Under the pieces are notes generated by a model. That model made no database searches. It was not told the origin of the DNA and worked only from the letters and a program-made list of their open reading frames with translations. Made by a program: the position numbers and the translations under genes. From Afipia sp. 1NLS2 (GTDB taxonomy: Bacteria > Pseudomonadota > Alphaproteobacteria > Rhizobiales > Xanthobacteraceae), in contig NZ_ADVZ01000001.1 in NCBI RefSeq assembly GCF_000178995.1, forward strand, positions 1,212,001-1,276,000: a stretch of DNA of 64,000 bases. Direction: 5' to 3'. Of this stretch, positions 22,266 to 29,707 are shown piece by piece. Position 1 is the stretch's first letter, and the number at the start of each line of letters is the position of its first letter.

Positions 22266-22342
22266 GCGCCCGTAGCTCAGCTGGATAGAGCGCCACCCTC
22301 CGAAGGTGGAGGCCACACGTTCGAATCGTGTCGGGCGCGCCA
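22266..22342 (+). tRNA. tRNA-Arg(CCG)
   Basis: Complete cloverleaf: acceptor GCGCCCG (22266-22272) pairs with CGGGCGC (22332-22338); D arm GCTCAGCTGGATAGAGC; anticodon stem CCACC/GGTGG around loop CTCCGAA with anticodon CCG; T arm ACACG-TTCGAAT-CGTGT; discriminator G and encoded CCA at 22340-22342. It reads CGG codons. Confidence 0.96.
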
Positions 22343-22536: not shown

Positions 22537-23427
22537 TCACTTGAATCGTGGCGTCCAGCTTTCAATCAACTTGTCTTCGTCTCCGTCGTCCTCCTCGGCT
22601 TCGGAGCGCATAGACAAGCCCTTGCAGGTCAATATCGTAAGACTGCGTCCGTACCGACCCAAACCGATGACTTCTTCCGTCACGCGATATGAACAATCGC
22701 CGCCCATCCAGTCATTGAGACAAGCCTCTCTGGAATCGCTTTGGCCAGCTCGCTCATCATCTGGGCGTGTATTGAAAGAAGCCGTCAGCGTCGTATCGGG
22801 AACTGGCGCCCATTTGCGAATGAACCTCAGTCCCTTCGCTTGCTTCAGGCCATCCGACATGAAGCACCATTCCACGCCGTCGCCCTTAGTCAACAACACC
22901 GCAACTCCATCAGCAGTCAACGTGACGTAACGTATGGCAGTCGCGGTTAGTGAGGTTTCGCATTGCTTGCTCAGCGCCTCGACGCAAGCGAGGCCAGGGT
23001 CGTACTCGTCAATTGCGCGCTTGAACGCTCTCTCCGGCATCAACAGCGCCGCCGCAAAGTGATCCGCTTCGTGCTCGTAAGGATCGGAAGATTGGAACCC
23101 TGCGTGTGAGATGTGCATCCCGTTATCGAGGAGCGCGTCCGAATGTCCCTCGATGCAGTAGTGCCCTAGTTCATGGGCAACGCTGAATCGTTGGAAACCA
23201 CGGCTTGGAATTTTCGTAGCATAGAGTATTCCGAACTCGTCGCCTGCCTTGAGGAGCATCCCTGATACGCCGTCGGCGGTATCCGGCTTGGCACGAACTT
23301 CGATACCCTTAGCCTTGGCAATCGCTATCGGATCGACCCATGGACCTTCAATGTTGTTTGCGCGCAGCACTTGGGTCGCTGCCGACTCCGCAATTGAGCG
23401 CCGAGCCAGTCGCAGTCCCGCACTCAT
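22537..23427 (-). CDS. ImmA/IrrE family metallo-endopeptidase
   Basis: Zinc protease of 296 residues. The catalytic helix is AHELGHYCIEGH (His85, Glu86, His89), with the downstream third ligand in YEHEADHFAAALLMP (near Glu120). Such proteases cleave XRE-type repressors, as ImmA does with ImmR in ICEBs1 and IrrE with DdrO. A C-terminal 150-residue domain, acidic at its end, may be a sensor. It overlaps the XRE gene by 4 bases (ATGA), indicating coupled translation and a shared promoter. The substrate is probably its own partner repressor (inference). Confidence 0.9.
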   Translation of the reverse strand: MSAGLRLARRSIAESAATQVLRANNIEGPWVDPIAIAKAKGIEVRAKPDTADGVSGMLLKAGDEFGILYATKIPSRGFQRFSVAHELGHYCIEGHSDALLDNGMHISHAGFQSSDPYEHEADHFAAALLMPERAFKRAIDEYDPGLACVEALSKQCETSLTATAIRYVTLTADGVAVLLTKGDGVEWCFMSDGLKQAKGLRFIRKWAPVPDTTLTASFNTRPDDERAGQSDSREACLNDWMGGDCSYRVTEEVIGLGRYGRSLTILTCKGLSMRSEAEEDDGDEDKLIESWTPRFK

Positions 23428-23780
23428 GTTTGGTCGTTTCCGGAGTTGCGCTTCTTGAGGAGAAGCTCGACGAAATCCTGAGCTAGCTCCAGGTCTTGTG
23501 ATGACAATTTGTGTAGATCACGGTGAAGTCGGCCAACTGTTTCCGCCGATGCGTCGGGTGTTTCGGAACGACCAAGCAAATAGTCCGTCGTCACGTCCAA
23601 TGCCTTGGCCAGAGCCTTGAGATTATCGAAGGACGGTTTCCTAGGTCCCGATTCGAAATGCGACACGGAAGCGGGCGGCAGACCCGCTTTGGCCGCCAGC
23701 AGGGCTTGGCTCAAGCCCCGCAGGTCGCGCGCTTCTCTGAGCCGTTTACTAAAGATTTCAGTGGCTTGGTCCTCACCCAT
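23424..23780 (-). CDS. XRE-family transcriptional regulator
   Basis: 118-residue repressor-like protein. The helix-turn-helix spans about residues 22-50 (GLSQALLAAKAGLPPASVSH), followed by the typical LAKALDVTTDYLLG ending and a polar helical tail, probably the cleavage or dimerisation region. The ATG at 23780 is used; frames running further upstream are antisense to the divergent operon. It precedes the ImmA-like gene in the same transcript and faces a dyad-symmetric site in the shared promoter region. Confidence 0.9.
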   Translation of the reverse strand: MGEDQATEIFSKRLREARDLRGLSQALLAAKAGLPPASVSHFESGPRKPSFDNLKALAKALDVTTDYLLGRSETPDASAETVGRLHRDLHKLSSQDLELAQDFVELLLKKRNSGNDQT

Positions 23781-23799
23781 GGCGTCTCCGACATAAATA

Positions 23800-23847
23800 A
23801 CTTGACATCTTCGCCATGAAAGACAAACGATGGCGGTAGTAACAAGT
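23800..23847. promoter_or_regulatory. nested dyad, candidate XRE operator
   Basis: Two pairs of inverted arms share the same centre (between 23823 and 23824): outer ACTTG (23800-23804) with CAAGT (23843-23847), inner CGCCAT (23812-23817) with ATGGCG (23830-23835). The site lies in the 114 bases between the divergent XRE and DUF2188 genes, so one dimeric or tetrameric repressor bound here could control both transcripts. A TTGACA hexamer at 23803-23808 is inside it. Confidence 0.55.
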
Positions 23848-23894
23848 GTGCCATGGCAGAATCGCAAGGTGCAAGTCAAAGTTGGAGACAGCGA

Positions 23895-24137
23895 ATGTCG
23901 AAGAATGATCGCTTTGTAGTGAAGCACGGCACGGATTGGGCGGTGAAGAAGGCCGCTTCGGCCACACCCGAAAGCGTGCACCACAAACAGTCCAATGCCG
24001 AACAGCAGGCAAAGGCAACGGTCCGCAGCCTCGGCGGTGGCGAGGTTAGGATTCAGGGTCGCGACGCGAAATGGCGCGACTCTGATACGGTCGCTCCGGG
24101 ACGCGATCCTTTCCCGCCTCGTGACAAAAAACACTAA
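23895..24137 (+). CDS. DUF2188 domain-containing small protein
   Basis: 80-residue basic protein starting SKNDRFVVKHGTDWAVKK; the WAVKKAASATPESVHHKQSNAEQQA block is the DUF2188 signature, a short beta-alpha-beta module of unknown role, and a charged C-terminal tail follows (GRDAKWRDSD...). It is the first gene of the ubiquitin-like operon, ending 15 bases before the Ubl gene. It could supply a conjugation target, an adaptor or a regulator, but nothing in the sequence decides. An in-frame ATG at 23853 is an alternative start. Confidence 0.75.
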   Translation: MSKNDRFVVKHGTDWAVKKAASATPESVHHKQSNAEQQAKATVRSLGGGEVRIQGRDAKWRDSDTVAPGRDPFPPRDKKH

Positions 24138-24152
24138 GCAAGGAGCATAGAC

Positions 24153-24461
24153 ATGGCGAACGGTAACAACAACGGCAATGGGAACGGTAATGGCGGGGGC
24201 AGCCCCGGCCACGGCGGCGGCAACGACCACATGATCACAATCTACGTGAACGGCACGCCATATGAGGTCGAGAAGGGCCCCCTCTCTTATGCGCAGCTGC
24301 TGGTCTTGATCAGCGCGGCGCCGCTGCCGGAGAACCAGCGCTATGCGGTTCAGTATAGCAAGGGCAACAACGACAAACCGACCGGCACGCTTATCGAAGG
24401 CGAGTCCGTGCAGGTGAAGAAGGACATGGAATTCGATGTCACACCGGCTACTCGCTCGTAG
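24153..24461 (+). CDS. ubiquitin-like modifier (multiubiquitin family, one domain)
   Basis: 102-residue protein. Residues 1-26 are a Gly/Asn-rich, likely disordered leader with several short GN and GNG repeats. Residues 27-102 form one beta-grasp domain of the prokaryotic multiubiquitin type (ITIYVNGTPYEVEKG at the first hairpin, YAVQYSKG in the middle, and FDVTPATRS as the end). There is no Gly-Gly C-terminus; the FxVTxTxxS ending is common in this family. The ribosome site AAGGAG lies 9 bases upstream of the ATG. The 3' end overlaps the E1 gene by 26 bases. Expected role: the protein that is activated and attached to targets (inference from the family). Confidence 0.82.
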   Translation: MANGNNNGNGNGNGGGSPGHGGGNDHMITIYVNGTPYEVEKGPLSYAQLLVLISAAPLPENQRYAVQYSKGNNDKPTGTLIEGESVQVKKDMEFDVTPATRS

Positions 24462-25629
24462 CGATGATTTGCTCGCGCTTCGCAACGCGGGCTTTCATCT
24501 CGAGATCCGCAGCGGATACCTCTTGGTCAAGGATGTGCCCTACGTCACGTCCTCGCGCGAAGTCCGCGAAGACGGCGTTCTCTTCTCCAAGTTGGAGACG
24601 CAGGTCGTTAACGGGCACGAGCGCACCAAGAAGCCGGGCGCTCACGTTGCCTACTGGACGGGGGAGCACCCATGTAAGGCCGACGGTGCAAAAATCCGCG
24701 CCTTCGAGAATCCCAGTGCGCCACAGAATTTCGGCAAAGGCGTCCAAGCTGACTTCACCTTCTCGGCGAAGGCCAGCTATCGCGATTACGTCCACAAGAT
24801 GCAGGCCTATCTCGGCTGGATTGTTGGCGAGGCGCAGAAGATCCGCCCGGAAGTCACGGCGCAGACCTTCCCGGTATACGCTACGGACGAAGACGATGAC
24901 GATGTCTTCAATTACATCGACACGGCGTCAAGCCGTGTCCACGTGGGCGCCGATAACGAGAAGCTCGAAGAGCAGCGCGTCGCCATCATAGGCGTAGGCG
25001 GCACTGGATCGTACGTCCTCGATTTCGTGGCGAAGACTCGCGTCGGGGAGATTCATATCTTCGACGGCGACCGTTTCGACACGCACAACGCGTTCCGCGC
25101 ACCGGGAGCGTGGTCGCTGGAAGAGCTCGAAAGCAAGAAATCCAAGGTCGATACACTGGGCGACATCTACGGCAAGCTGCGCAGACGCGGCTTGATCAAG
25201 CATCCAGCAAAGCTGACCGCTGAAAACATCCAGCAGCTTGAGGGTATCAACTTTGCCTTTCTGTGCCTGGATAACGGTAAGTCTAAGCGCGCAATCGTCG
25301 ATTGGCTCCTTGAACACAACGTGTCGTTCATCGACGTCGGCATGGGCGTGGTGCGTGCGCCGACGGGCTTGCAGGGTATCGTGCGCGTCCTCACCTGCAC
25401 GCCAGACAAGAGCGATCATATCGCAACCCGCATGTCGTTCGGCGAGGAAGATGAGGCGGAGAACGAGTACGCCACCAACATCCAGATCGCTGAATTGAAT
25501 GCGCTGAACGCCGCGATGGCTGTGATAAGATGGAAGCGTTTGATCGGCTTCTACCGCGACGCCGGACGCGAGCATTATTCCAGCTACCAAATTGCAACCG
25601 GCGTAATCGCGATTGAGGAGACCGAGTGA
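24436..25629 (+). CDS. E1-like ThiF-family activating enzyme with N-terminal DUF6791-type domain
   Basis: 397 residues in two parts. The first 175 resemble the DUF6791 domain found ahead of ThiF in such operons and contain one cysteine (Cys80) plus an acidic linker DEDDDD (151-156). The ThiF/E1 adenylation domain follows: nucleotide loop VAIIGVGGTGSYV (182-194), the FDGDRFDTHNAFR block (209-221, with the catalytic Asp and Arg), and FLCLDN (275-280). Cys277 and Cys321 are candidate acceptor cysteines. It overlaps the Ubl gene at its start and the DUF6527 gene at its end (GTGA), so the three are translationally coupled. It would adenylate the Ubl C-terminus. MoeB or ThiF metabolism is unlikely given the extra domain and neighbours. 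Confidence 0.87.
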   Translation: MSHRLLARSDDLLALRNAGFHLEIRSGYLLVKDVPYVTSSREVREDGVLFSKLETQVVNGHERTKKPGAHVAYWTGEHPCKADGAKIRAFENPSAPQNFGKGVQADFTFSAKASYRDYVHKMQAYLGWIVGEAQKIRPEVTAQTFPVYATDEDDDDVFNYIDTASSRVHVGADNEKLEEQRVAIIGVGGTGSYVLDFVAKTRVGEIHIFDGDRFDTHNAFRAPGAWSLEELESKKSKVDTLGDIYGKLRRRGLIKHPAKLTAENIQQLEGINFAFLCLDNGKSKRAIVDWLLEHNVSFIDVGMGVVRAPTGLQGIVRVLTCTPDKSDHIATRMSFGEEDEAENEYATNIQIAELNALNAAMAVIRWKRLIGFYRDAGREHYSSYQIATGVIAIEETE

Positions 25630-26066
25630 CGCGGCGCACGACCATGAAGCACTGCTACGTCGAGTTCATCCCAAAGGATCTCGACAAAGGCATGCTTTAC
25701 ATTTCCAACCGCTTTAAAACCGCATCTCACCTATGCTGCTGCGGCTGCGGCAATAAAGTTGTGACGCCCCTCAATCCCTCGAAGTGGCGATTGACTGATC
25801 ACGGCTCGACGGTCTCGCTTGAGCCCTCGATAGGCCTCGGCGTTTTGCCCTGCAAATCACACTATTGGATCAGGGAGTCGCGGATCGATTGGTATCCGAG
25901 CATGACCTATGGTGAGACGCAGCGCGCGCAACGAGCAGATCACTACACCAGCCAAGTTTACACTGGTGAAATCAAGCCGCCACCGCCGCCGGCGCCGTCC
26001 ACACCGCCAGCTTGGTGGCAACGGTTCATCGCCTGGGTAGTAACGCTGTTTAAGCGTGCGAAATAA
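25626..26066 (+). CDS. DUF6527 family cysteine-rich protein
   Basis: 146-residue protein. A metal site is suggested by CCCGCG (Cys37-Cys41) and CKSHYWI (Cys76, His79), giving a CxC...CxxH arrangement like a treble clef. The tail is Pro-rich (PPPPPAPSTPP, about 118-128) and ends in a Trp-rich basic/hydrophobic segment (AWWQRFIAWVVTLFKRAK) that could be a membrane-binding helix. The frame opens with GTG at 25626 overlapping the E1 stop; an ATG at 25644 is an alternative. The family regularly accompanies multiubiquitin and E1 genes. A role as ligase-like or target-binding subunit is inference. Confidence 0.8.
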   Translation: MTRRTTMKHCYVEFIPKDLDKGMLYISNRFKTASHLCCCGCGNKVVTPLNPSKWRLTDHGSTVSLEPSIGLGVLPCKSHYWIRESRIDWYPSMTYGETQRAQRADHYTSQVYTGEIKPPPPPAPSTPPAWWQRFIAWVVTLFKRAK

Positions 26067-26690: not shown

Positions 26691-27119
26691 CTATTCGACG
26701 GTCGTCTCACGAAACAACGTCTCGATCAGCGGGCAATCCGGGCGCCTTCCATCACCGCATTGCGCGAGGACCCTCTTCAGGACTCCCTCCATACGTTGCA
26801 GATCGGCGATTTTCGTCCGCACGTTCACCAAGTGAGTTGCCGCGAGTCGGCTCGCTTCCGCGCACGGCTGGTCCCGCTCGTCCACCAGACGCAACAAGGC
26901 GCGTACCTCCTCAAGTGAGAATCCAAGTTCACGCGCCCTCAGCACAAAGCTGAGACGGCGTTCGTGCGCCCTGTCATAGCTCCGATAGCCGGCGGCCGTT
27001 CGCGGCGGCGGTGGCAGCAGGCCGACCTTCTCGTAGTAGCGCACTGTTTCGAGATTAGCGCCCGTCCGCCGGGCCAATTCGGCCCTCTGGAGGCCCTTCG
27101 CCGGAGTCTGATCGCGCAT
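26691..27119 (-). CDS. merR: mercuric resistance regulator MerR
   Basis: 142-residue MerR protein. The winged helix-turn-helix is in residues 11-50 (ETVRYYEKVGLL). Three cysteines, Cys86, Cys121 and Cys129, match the MerR mercury-binding triad in order and almost in spacing (35 and 8 residues, against 35 and 9 in Tn501 MerR). It is divergent from merT across a MerR-type promoter with a 19-base spacer, as in known mer operons, so it should repress and, on Hg(II), activate merTPA and itself. Confidence 0.93.
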   Translation of the reverse strand: MRDQTPAKGLQRAELARRTGANLETVRYYEKVGLLPPPPRTAAGYRSYDRAHERRLSFVLRARELGFSLEEVRALLRLVDERDQPCAEASRLAATHLVNVRTKIADLQRMEGVLKRVLAQCGDGRRPDCPLIETLFRETTVE

Positions 27120-28194: not shown

Positions 28195-28273
28195 CCTTAC
28201 GTCGTGACCGGTTGGCCAACCAAAACACTGTCGATTGCTGCGCGCTCGAAAGCGCAAAACGAAAGTCAAACTC

Positions 28274-29707
28274 ATGAACGATTGCTACACGGCGGACGCC
28301 ACGAATCGAAACCGTCACTACGACCTTGCGGTCATCGGCGCCGGATCAGCGGGATTCTCGGCCGCGATCACGGCCGCCGATCAGGGCGCGCGGGTGGCGC
28401 TCGTCGGGAGCGGCCCCATTGGTGGGACCTGCGTCAATGTTGGCTGCGTACCATCGAAGACCCTCATCCGCGCCGCAGAGACACTTCATAACGCCCGCGC
28501 GGCCGCCCGCTTTGCCGGCATCACGGCCAACGCCGAACTGACCGACTGGCGTGGAACCGTTCGTCAGAAGGACGCACTCGTTTCTGCGCTGCGCCAAACT
28601 AAATACATTGACCTACTCCCCGCCTATAACGGCATCACTTATCTCGAGGGACCGGCGCGCCTCATCAAGGGCGGTATCGAGGCGGGGAGCTTCCGCGTCG
28701 CTGCTGGCAAGATCATCATCGCGACCGGTGCGCGGTCGGCGATGCCCGCCATTCCTGGTATCGAGGCGGTGCCGTATCTAACTAGCACGACGGCACTCGA
28801 CATCGAAGAGTTGCCGCGCTCCCTGCTCGTCATCGGCGGCGGCTATATCGGCACTGAACTCGCTCAGATGTTCGCCCGGGCCGGCGTTAGAGTAACGCTC
28901 GTGTGCCGCTCGCACCTGCTGCCAGCGGCTGAGCCCGAGATCGGCGCGGCGCTCATGGGATATTTCGAGGATGAAGGAATTACCGTCGTCTCCGGCATTG
29001 CCTACCGGGCAATTCGCGGGATCGCGGGTGGGATTTCACTCATCGTCACCCGCGATAATCGCGATATTGCAATCGACGCCGACCAGGTGCTGGTCACGAC
29101 TGGGCGTGCGCCCAACGTCGAAGGCCTTGGGCTCGCCGAACACGGCATCCCTATCTCGCCGAAGGGTGGCATCGTCATCGACGAGTGCATGCGCACCACC
29201 AGGGCCAACATCTATGCCGCCGGCGATGTCACCGGCCGCGACCAATTCGTATACATGGCCGCCTATGGCGCCAAGCTCGCAGCGAGGAACGCCCTCAACG
29301 GTGACAGTCTGCGCTACGATAACAGCGCTATGCCCGCCGTCGTGTTCACCGACCCGCAGGTCGCAAGCGTCGGGCTGACCGAGTTTGCGGCCCGCGCCGC
29401 GGGCCATATTGTCCGCGTCTCAACCATCAACCTCAATCAAGTGCCGCGCGCACTTGCCGCCCGTGACACGCGGGGGCTCATCAAACTGGTTGCCCATGCA
29501 GGCGACGGGCGGCTGCTCGGCGCCCATATCCTCGCCCCGGAAGGCGCCGATAGTATCCAAACCGCTGTTATAGCGATCCGTGCCGGACTGACCGTACAGC
29601 AGATCGCGGACACGATATTCCCATATCTCACCACGGTGGAAGGCCTGAAGCTCGCAGCGCTCGCGTTCGACAGAGAAGTGACGAAGCTTTCATGTTGTGC
29701 TGGATGA
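28274..29707 (+). CDS. merA: mercuric reductase MerA
   Basis: FAD/NADPH enzyme reducing Hg(II) to volatile Hg(0), 477 residues. FAD-binding GAGSAGFSAA (22-31); the redox pair GTCVNVGCVPSK has Cys53 and Cys58; NADPH-binding GGGYIGTE; the second FAD block AAGDVTG; and the C-terminal Cys474-Cys475 pair (SCCAG) that hands Hg(II) to the active site. There is no N-terminal MerP-like domain, as in shorter MerA forms. I chose the ATG at 28274 (NDCYTADAT). It follows merR-merT-merP in a functional order and should be Hg-induced. Confidence 0.96.
   Translation: MNDCYTADATNRNRHYDLAVIGAGSAGFSAAITAADQGARVALVGSGPIGGTCVNVGCVPSKTLIRAAETLHNARAAARFAGITANAELTDWRGTVRQKDALVSALRQTKYIDLLPAYNGITYLEGPARLIKGGIEAGSFRVAAGKIIIATGARSAMPAIPGIEAVPYLTSTTALDIEELPRSLLVIGGGYIGTELAQMFARAGVRVTLVCRSHLLPAAEPEIGAALMGYFEDEGITVVSGIAYRAIRGIAGGISLIVTRDNRDIAIDADQVLVTTGRAPNVEGLGLAEHGIPISPKGGIVIDECMRTTRANIYAAGDVTGRDQFVYMAAYGAKLAARNALNGDSLRYDNSAMPAVVFTDPQVASVGLTEFAARAAGHIVRVSTINLNQVPRALAARDTRGLIKLVAHAGDGRLLGAHILAPEGADSIQTAVIAIRAGLTVQQIADTIFPYLTTVEGLKLAALAFDREVTKLSCCAG

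Follow-up and report, generated by a model that had tools for sequence, protein, structure and literature searches.

The window analysed here is a stretch of 64,000 nucleotides from Afipia sp. 1NLS2 (contig NZ_ADVZ01000001.1, positions 1,212,001 to 1,276,000). At 22537 to 26066 it holds six genes in two divergent groups (Table 1). The minus strand encodes an XRE-type repressor and an ImmA/IrrE-type metallopeptidase, whose genes share 4 bases (ATGA). The plus strand encodes a DUF2188 protein, a ubiquitin-like protein (Ubl), a ThiF-type activating enzyme (E1) and a DUF6527 protein. The DUF2188 and Ubl genes are 15 bases apart, and the E1 and DUF6527 genes overlap by 4 bases. Open reading frames and profile searches bear out the six genes, their order, strands and overlaps as an earlier note on this DNA had given them. 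The metallopeptidase carries HELGH at residues 85-89, corresponding to the HExxH active site, and EADHF at residue 120. The Ubl consists of one beta-grasp domain preceded by a Gly/Asn-rich tail. The top NCBIfam model for the E1 is PRK06153.1-4, with 492 bits against a cut-off of 352, and is named merely 'hypothetical protein'.

Table 1. Genes and other features at the locus, in window coordinates
Feature	Position	Strand	Evidence or detail
CapP-type ImmA/IrrE metallopeptidase	22537..23427	-	PADLOC capP 4.8e-62, residues 13-268 of 296; Pfam M78 2.3e-12; PDB 7t5t CapP 8.3e-11
CapH-type XRE repressor	23424..23780	-	PADLOC capH 1.1e-24, profile positions 5-101 of 103; HTH_3 2.8e-18
Divergent intergenic region, 72 bases	23781..23852	.	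Inverted repeat CGCCAT-N12-ATGGCG at 23812 and 23830
DUF2188 small protein, recurrent accessory	23853..24137	+	Pfam 1e-12; PADLOC candidate PDC-S16 2.8e-14
Single-domain Ubl, tail FDVTPATRS	24153..24461	+	Multi_ubiq (PF14452) 1.1e-8
E1: DUF6791 (11-163) fused to ThiF/E1 adenylation domain	24436..25629	+	DUF6791 3.7e-42; ThiF 1.9e-14
Ubl/E1 gene overlap, 26 bases	24436..24461	+	
DUF6527 protein	25626..26066	+	Pfam 6.3e-22; C-terminal helix 129-145 in model
tRNA-Arg (CCG)	22266..22342	+	ARAGORN

The trio of Ubl, E1 and DUF6527 fits system 6e, in the form where a domain X stands in for JAB, and is a relative of the Bub operons. System 6e was described by Iyer, Burroughs and Aravind in 2006 (PMC1779556). 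In the part of that paper available to us it comprises a Ubl made of one, two or three beta-grasp domains, an E1 with an N-terminal JAB or domain X, and a metal-binding protein Y with the signature C-x3-C-x35-38-H-x2-C; a solo-Ubl version is given in its Table 1. The window shares with this system an E1 that has a non-JAB domain at its N-terminus and a neighbouring Ubl from the multi/poly-Ubl family. Its DUF6527 reads C37-x3-C41-x34-C76-x2-H79, which is close to the printed signature of Y and not identical to it. Position and description lead us to equate domain X with DUF6791 and Y with DUF6527, by inference. The kit and its ImmA pairing are already known, as the available parts of three papers attest (PMC1779556, PMC4963859, PMC13373217). 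The available part of PMC1779556 contains no regulator, mechanism or tail analysis for system 6e. The present analysis adds an invariant Ser tail encoded in a 26-base overlap, a match between Tyr345 of the window E1 and Tyr370 of BubCD, and searches in which no Bub-type conjugating enzyme (E2) or Prok-JAB was found.

The Bub operons (PMC13373217; PDB 9ea4, 9ea5, 9ea8, 9eae, 9eav) share the order of Ubl, E1 and DUF6527 with the window in most of the relatives fetched. These are nine plasmid loci (L109-L117), hand-picked from 161 plasmid records matched by the E1 fragment of Citrobacter BubCD. An E2/UBC-annotated gene lies between Ubl and ThiF in five of the nine (L112-L115, L117), and the end of the Ubl protein in L109-L111 aligns with these E2s. 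Pfam assigns Prok-E2_E to the E2 of L113, Prok-JAB plus ThiF to the E1 of L109, and DUF6527 to the neighbour of the latter. JAMM residues are present in all seven Bub-type E1 N-termini aligned. DUF6527 is annotated in six of the nine, directly after the E1 in L109, L110, L113, L114 and L115 and after an extra gene in L117; L111, L112 and L116 lack such an annotation. XRE/ImmA genes accompany four (L110, L111, L113, L115). The order in L113 is XRE, ImmA, DUF2188, Ubl, E2, ThiF, DUF6527. The window operon is thus this block minus the E2, with DUF6791 in the place of JAB. Both the BubB-type E2 and the BubC JAB are absent from it.

The comparison that follows covers 89 loci of the DUF6791 form: the window, 8 plasmids and the best 80 of at least 538 relatives of the E1 found in a genome scan. 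The plasmids were hand-picked from 115 plasmid records matched by tblastn with the E1, every one at less than 60% identity. The query for the genome scan was an alignment of nine E1s, four with XRE and M78 (ImmA-type) neighbours and four with an M78-UvrD protein. A cut at 80% E1 identity leaves 66 non-redundant loci. Ubl and DUF6527 genes adjoin the E1 gene in 89/89 loci, an adjacency that is more than chance. Among the best 80 of the at least 538 relatives, the hosts belong to many bacterial phyla and include two archaeal records (L026, a Nitrosopumilus metagenome-assembled genome, and L035, an uncultured archaeon). The trio in both archaeal loci has the identical Ser tail and the 26-base overlap. 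Five IMG/VR contigs also encode relatives, and DUF6791 is found in 11 of 297 genomes of the host's order, the window genome counted. A second copy of DUF6791 in the window genome (L002, G000:C10:720233-720619) is broken, with one internal stop; no Ubl or DUF6527 was detected beside it, and it was excluded from every count.

The C-terminal residue of the Ubl is Ser in 88/88 relatives, and the last nine residues mostly follow F-[ND]-V-T-x-T-x-[KRQ]-S. The overlap with the E1 gene has the same length as in the window in 87/88; in L080 it is 23 bases, with a TTG start. Codon usage in the overlap was examined in 65 loci, leaving out L080 and the 80%-redundant loci. The final Ubl codon is TCN with all four third bases in use. 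The N is also the second base in the codon for E1 residue 8, which varies between R, H, L and P. Because the third base is free while E1 residue 8 drifts, it is the serine of the Ubl that selection holds and not residue 8 of the E1. The last 74 residues of PDB 9cd2 (ZDHYS365 multi-ubiquitin domain protein) match the Ubl family profile up to a final TDKS (7.2e-23). The chain of this solved relative has 222 residues, whereas the window Ubl has a single beta-grasp domain. Eight translated JAB-type Ubls end in other tails, for example FFTGKKTTTEG as against FNVTxTDKS. We read these tails to mean that the Ubl is probably made mature, with no trimming required, in agreement with the absence of a JAB.

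The Ser end also bears on whether the trio conjugates proteins at all. With a ThiF-type E1, it could instead be a sulfur-carrier or small-molecule biosynthesis system of the ThiS/ThiF kind. The model of the window E1 does match the E1-type structures of ThiF and MoeB, as well as that of MccB. We regard this reading as very improbable, given that the Ubl ends in Ser and not Gly and that the solved E1 nearest to the window E1 is Citrobacter BubCD, whose structure includes its Ubl and BubB.

Five residues of the E1, D210, D212, N218, R221 and K237, are each conserved in 62 of 62 aligned rows; we take them to be the adenylation site residues. Tyr345 is likewise invariant in the 62-row alignment. 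Its column is shared with Tyr370 of BubCD, and a Tyr at this position is common to the window E1 and the BubD-type E1s. The stretch around Tyr345 has low confidence in the structure model. In L109, whose E1 fragment is 88% identical to BubCD, the aspartate of the JAMM motif is Asp104, and Tyr370 lies in the sequence GYITG; the title of PDB 9eav is BubCD(D104A/Y370F). Ye et al. are said to have found in 2026 that Bub conjugation uses oxyesters. By analogy, oxyester chemistry would be expected on Tyr345.

No match to Prok-E2_E or to the Bub E2 profile A8 was found in the window genome, and none to Prok-JAB in the window E1 or the window genome. The earlier note was correct that the operon lacks a separate E2 and a JAB, and in these profile searches the statement extends to the genome. 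In the 1.23 Mb that the 89 loci and their flanks make up, the Bub E2 profile matches L035 only. The JAB profile gives a strong match in L035 and weak, partial ones in L079 and L039. About 2.4 kb past the trio in L035, on the opposite strand, a JAB-E1 and an E2-like frame form a second unit, so that both forms stand side by side (L035:8001-13369).

The extra N-terminal domain that the earlier note saw on the E1 is DUF6791, and it may itself be E2-like. In the structure model its order is helix, strands, long flap and helix, which is the order of E2/RWD domains. His70 and Cys80 are separated by ten residues, the same spacing as between the His and Cys of canonical E2s. Conservation is complete for Ser110 and His70 (62/62 each) and nearly so for Cys80 (61/62), Lys121 (59/62) and Lys112 (58/62). 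Global profile alignment of DUF6791 with 15 E2 rows, a set weakened by one stretch counted twice (L105, L127) and by a weak match in L035, gives a score of 9.9; shuffles have a mean of 2.9 and a standard deviation of 2.3, with 2 of 120 as high. The controls score 4.1 for Ubl and 6.6 for DUF6527. The domain resembles Bub E2s weakly, and not significantly.

The same domain could serve the opposite step and take over deconjugation from JAB, perhaps as a protease built on Ser110, His70 and a Lys. The E1 would then hand the Ubl to targets directly or by way of DUF6527. The strict conservation of Ser110 and His70, with Lys112 or Lys121, suits such a site, and Ser-His-Lys deubiquitinases in Bub operons are reportedly described in the 2026 work of Ye et al. 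as well. That a domain in the place of JAB does an analogous job was also a speculation of Iyer in 2006 (PMC1779556, in the part available to us). A Ubl with the same end residue in every relative, however, seems to have no need of trimming, the JAB control reaches a global score of 3.8 against 9.9 for E2, and no solved protease is similar by sequence. A deconjugase here would also leave the operon without an E2. We consider the deconjugase unlikely, though a serious contender. An E2-like role for DUF6791 seems somewhat more likely than a protease role because of the global score, the order of the model, the conserved residues and the missing E2.

DUF6527 is, beyond Ubl and E1, the component common to most operons of both forms. 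Its structure model has a mean predicted local distance difference test (pLDDT) score of 92. In the DUF6791 form H35, C37, C39, C41, P67, S68, C76, S78 and H79 are all conserved in 57/57 rows. Among six JAB-type relatives C57, S92 and H102 (L109 numbering) are invariant and the remaining cysteines are not. Our guess is that it takes part in choosing the substrate or in the last transfer step. In 10 of 90 loci, the window among them, a DUF2188 gene occurs near the trio, mostly upstream of the Ubl and in L031 downstream; it is also present in the JAB-type L113 (2018-2245).

The enrichment of XRE/ImmA genes beside such operons, which the earlier note's proposal of a switch leads one to expect, is found. 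An M78 domain lies upstream in 48/66 non-redundant loci and downstream in 1/66 (Fisher p 2e-19), in scanned stretches of 241,912 bases upstream and 204,316 bases downstream. Because of the make-up of the scan query, this rate may lean towards forms with M78. M78 was assigned with our own iterated profile, and Pfam M78 was confirmed in 13/13 cases checked; HExxH is missing in 3 of 70 M78 rows. The 48 loci comprise 27 with a separate XRE, 4 with a fused XRE-M78, 10 without a detected XRE and 7 with an M78-UvrD protein. L004, in which the UvrD fusion is clipped at the end of the locus, is placed in the last class, and L081 (850 amino acids, partial M78, no UvrD) outside it. The fusions to UvrD helicase (L004, L005, L007, L010, L041, L064, L085, L089) replace a separate CapP. 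The seven longer ones carry a PD-(D/E)XK nuclease domain (L004 is clipped), and Ubls of about 250 amino acids lie downstream of the fusions.

The regulator is modular and the switch detachable from the trio, because 18/66 loci have no upstream M78, among them the nearest relative (L011, 71% E1 identity), where the trio is present and no M78 domain was found upstream, and because a WYL gene occupies the upstream regulator slot in L008. The idea that XRE/ImmA is the switch of the Ubl pathway is supported by the CapH/CapP profile match and the M78 enrichment, and is qualified by this modularity. Regulators of the same kind are known from Bub operons. In the available part of PMC13373217 (2026), CapW or CapH+CapP go with 219/544 Bub operons, CapK+CapS also fill the regulator place, and single-stranded DNA activates CapP, which cleaves CapH. 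CapH+CapP (Lau et al. 2022, cited in the available part of PMC13373217; PDB 7t5t) consist of overlapping genes for a helix-turn-helix repressor and an M78 protease with a defence-type operon adjoining; the window pair is known from sequence. In the window the inverted repeat between the divergent genes is a weak candidate operator, as a 6-base repeat may be due to chance. No sigma-70-like promoter was found in these 72 bases.

The pair has been read differently. In the available part of PMC4963859 (2016), 70% of multiubiquitin (PF14452) proteins adjoin toxin-antitoxin loci with a COG2856/DUF955 component. On that model XRE/ImmA would be an addiction module that keeps the cassette on its mobile element and has no part in regulating the Ubl operon, and the position of the operon at the end of an island is in keeping with it. 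Yet the window pair matches the CapH and CapP profiles, and in 21/26 cases the XRE/M78 pair and the Ubl gene point away from each other across the presumed promoter. Interchangeable regulators, WYL in L008 and CapK+CapS in Bub, also fit better with control of the operon. We regard the addiction module as improbable and favour regulation because of the profile match, the mostly divergent placement over the promoter and the other regulators found in the slot. The presence of a repressor and its protease hints at a connection with DNA damage and offers a ready means of switching the operon on.

We propose that the locus is a compact Ubl conjugation operon of the system 6e kind, which resides on a tRNA-Arg island and is controlled by CapH and CapP. 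CapH would keep the divergent promoters repressed. When damage or phage infection yields single-stranded DNA, CapP would become active, CapH would be cut and the operon made; repression and induction are modelled on published CapH+CapP work. The Ubl would be synthesised mature with its fixed terminal serine, dispensing with a processing protease. The ThiF domain would adenylate the carboxylate of this Ser, and the Ubl would move to Tyr345 as an oxyester, as is supposed for Tyr370 of BubD. The fused DUF6791 would carry out the E2 step, with Ser110, His70, Lys112 or Cys80 as candidate residues, and DUF6527 may help to pick or attack the target. Taken as a whole, with this mechanism, we judge the proposal about evenly poised between right and wrong.

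Several observations weigh against it. That DUF6791 acts as an E2, that DUF6527 helps with the target, that conjugation takes place and that the operon has a part in phage or stress defence are each suppositions, and phage protection by Bub operons has not been demonstrated so far (PMC13373217, available part). The hhalign probability for DUF6791 and E2 is below 1%; P is 0.14 for the first run and 0.05 for the global one. In the local run 8/120 shuffles equal the real score, and the reversed profile scores 14.2 versus 15.9. Pfam lists no E2 family for any of 44 DUF6791 members, and no solved relative of DUF6791 was found by sequence. The acceptor residue is unsure, as Cys80 is conserved nearly like Ser110. 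Help in trans is possible in L035, where the JAB-E1 and E2-like frame are near the trio. DUF6527 has no known fold match, and no solved relative of it was found. The loci in which no upstream M78 was found also count here, although L022 and L060 among them have less than 2.5 kb of upstream sequence.

On the usual view, Ubl conjugation requires a modifier that ends in Gly together with an E1 and E2, and in many cases a protease. The point of interest is how a form without a separate E2 conjugates a modifier that ends in Ser. The earlier description of the system as unusually small holds by gene count, but is tempered by the prospect that a domain of the E1 does the E2 step. A bolder claim, which we hold to be less likely than not, is that the widespread DUF6791 form is the most compact Ubl pathway yet described. 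It would combine a mature Ser-ending Ubl, an E1-Tyr oxyester, a fused E2-like DUF6791 and one partner, DUF6527, with no separate E2 or processing protease, and with the tail held in the overlap across bacteria and archaea. If true, Ubl, E1 and one small partner would be the minimum for conjugation chemistry, and this would help to explain the origin of the E1-E2 cascade. The earlier reading as a whole is partly supported: its observation was sound and its mechanism a good guess, for a kind of system that had already been described.

A repeat of the tRNA end, a fall in G+C and an integrase by the far repeat indicate a tRNA-Arg-integrated island of about 174.5 kb; counted from one of its ends, the operon is the first clear gene cluster. 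The 3' 29 bases of the tRNA-Arg (22314-22342), the presumed integration site, are repeated directly at 28/29 positions about 174.5 kb downstream (G000:C10:1408832-1408860). No tRNA was detected around the far copy. A gene with phage-integrase and arm-binding domains (tyrosine integrase) ends 91 bases from that copy. From the end of the tRNA-Arg to the stop of capP there are 194 bases, and G+C drops at this boundary from about 0.64-0.65 to about 0.56. Downstream of the operon, on the island, come genes that resemble merR (26691-27119) and the reductase gene merA (28235-29707) of mercury resistance; both were named by inspection. Large genes at the far end of the island, also named by inspection, resemble a DNA methyltransferase and a helicase.

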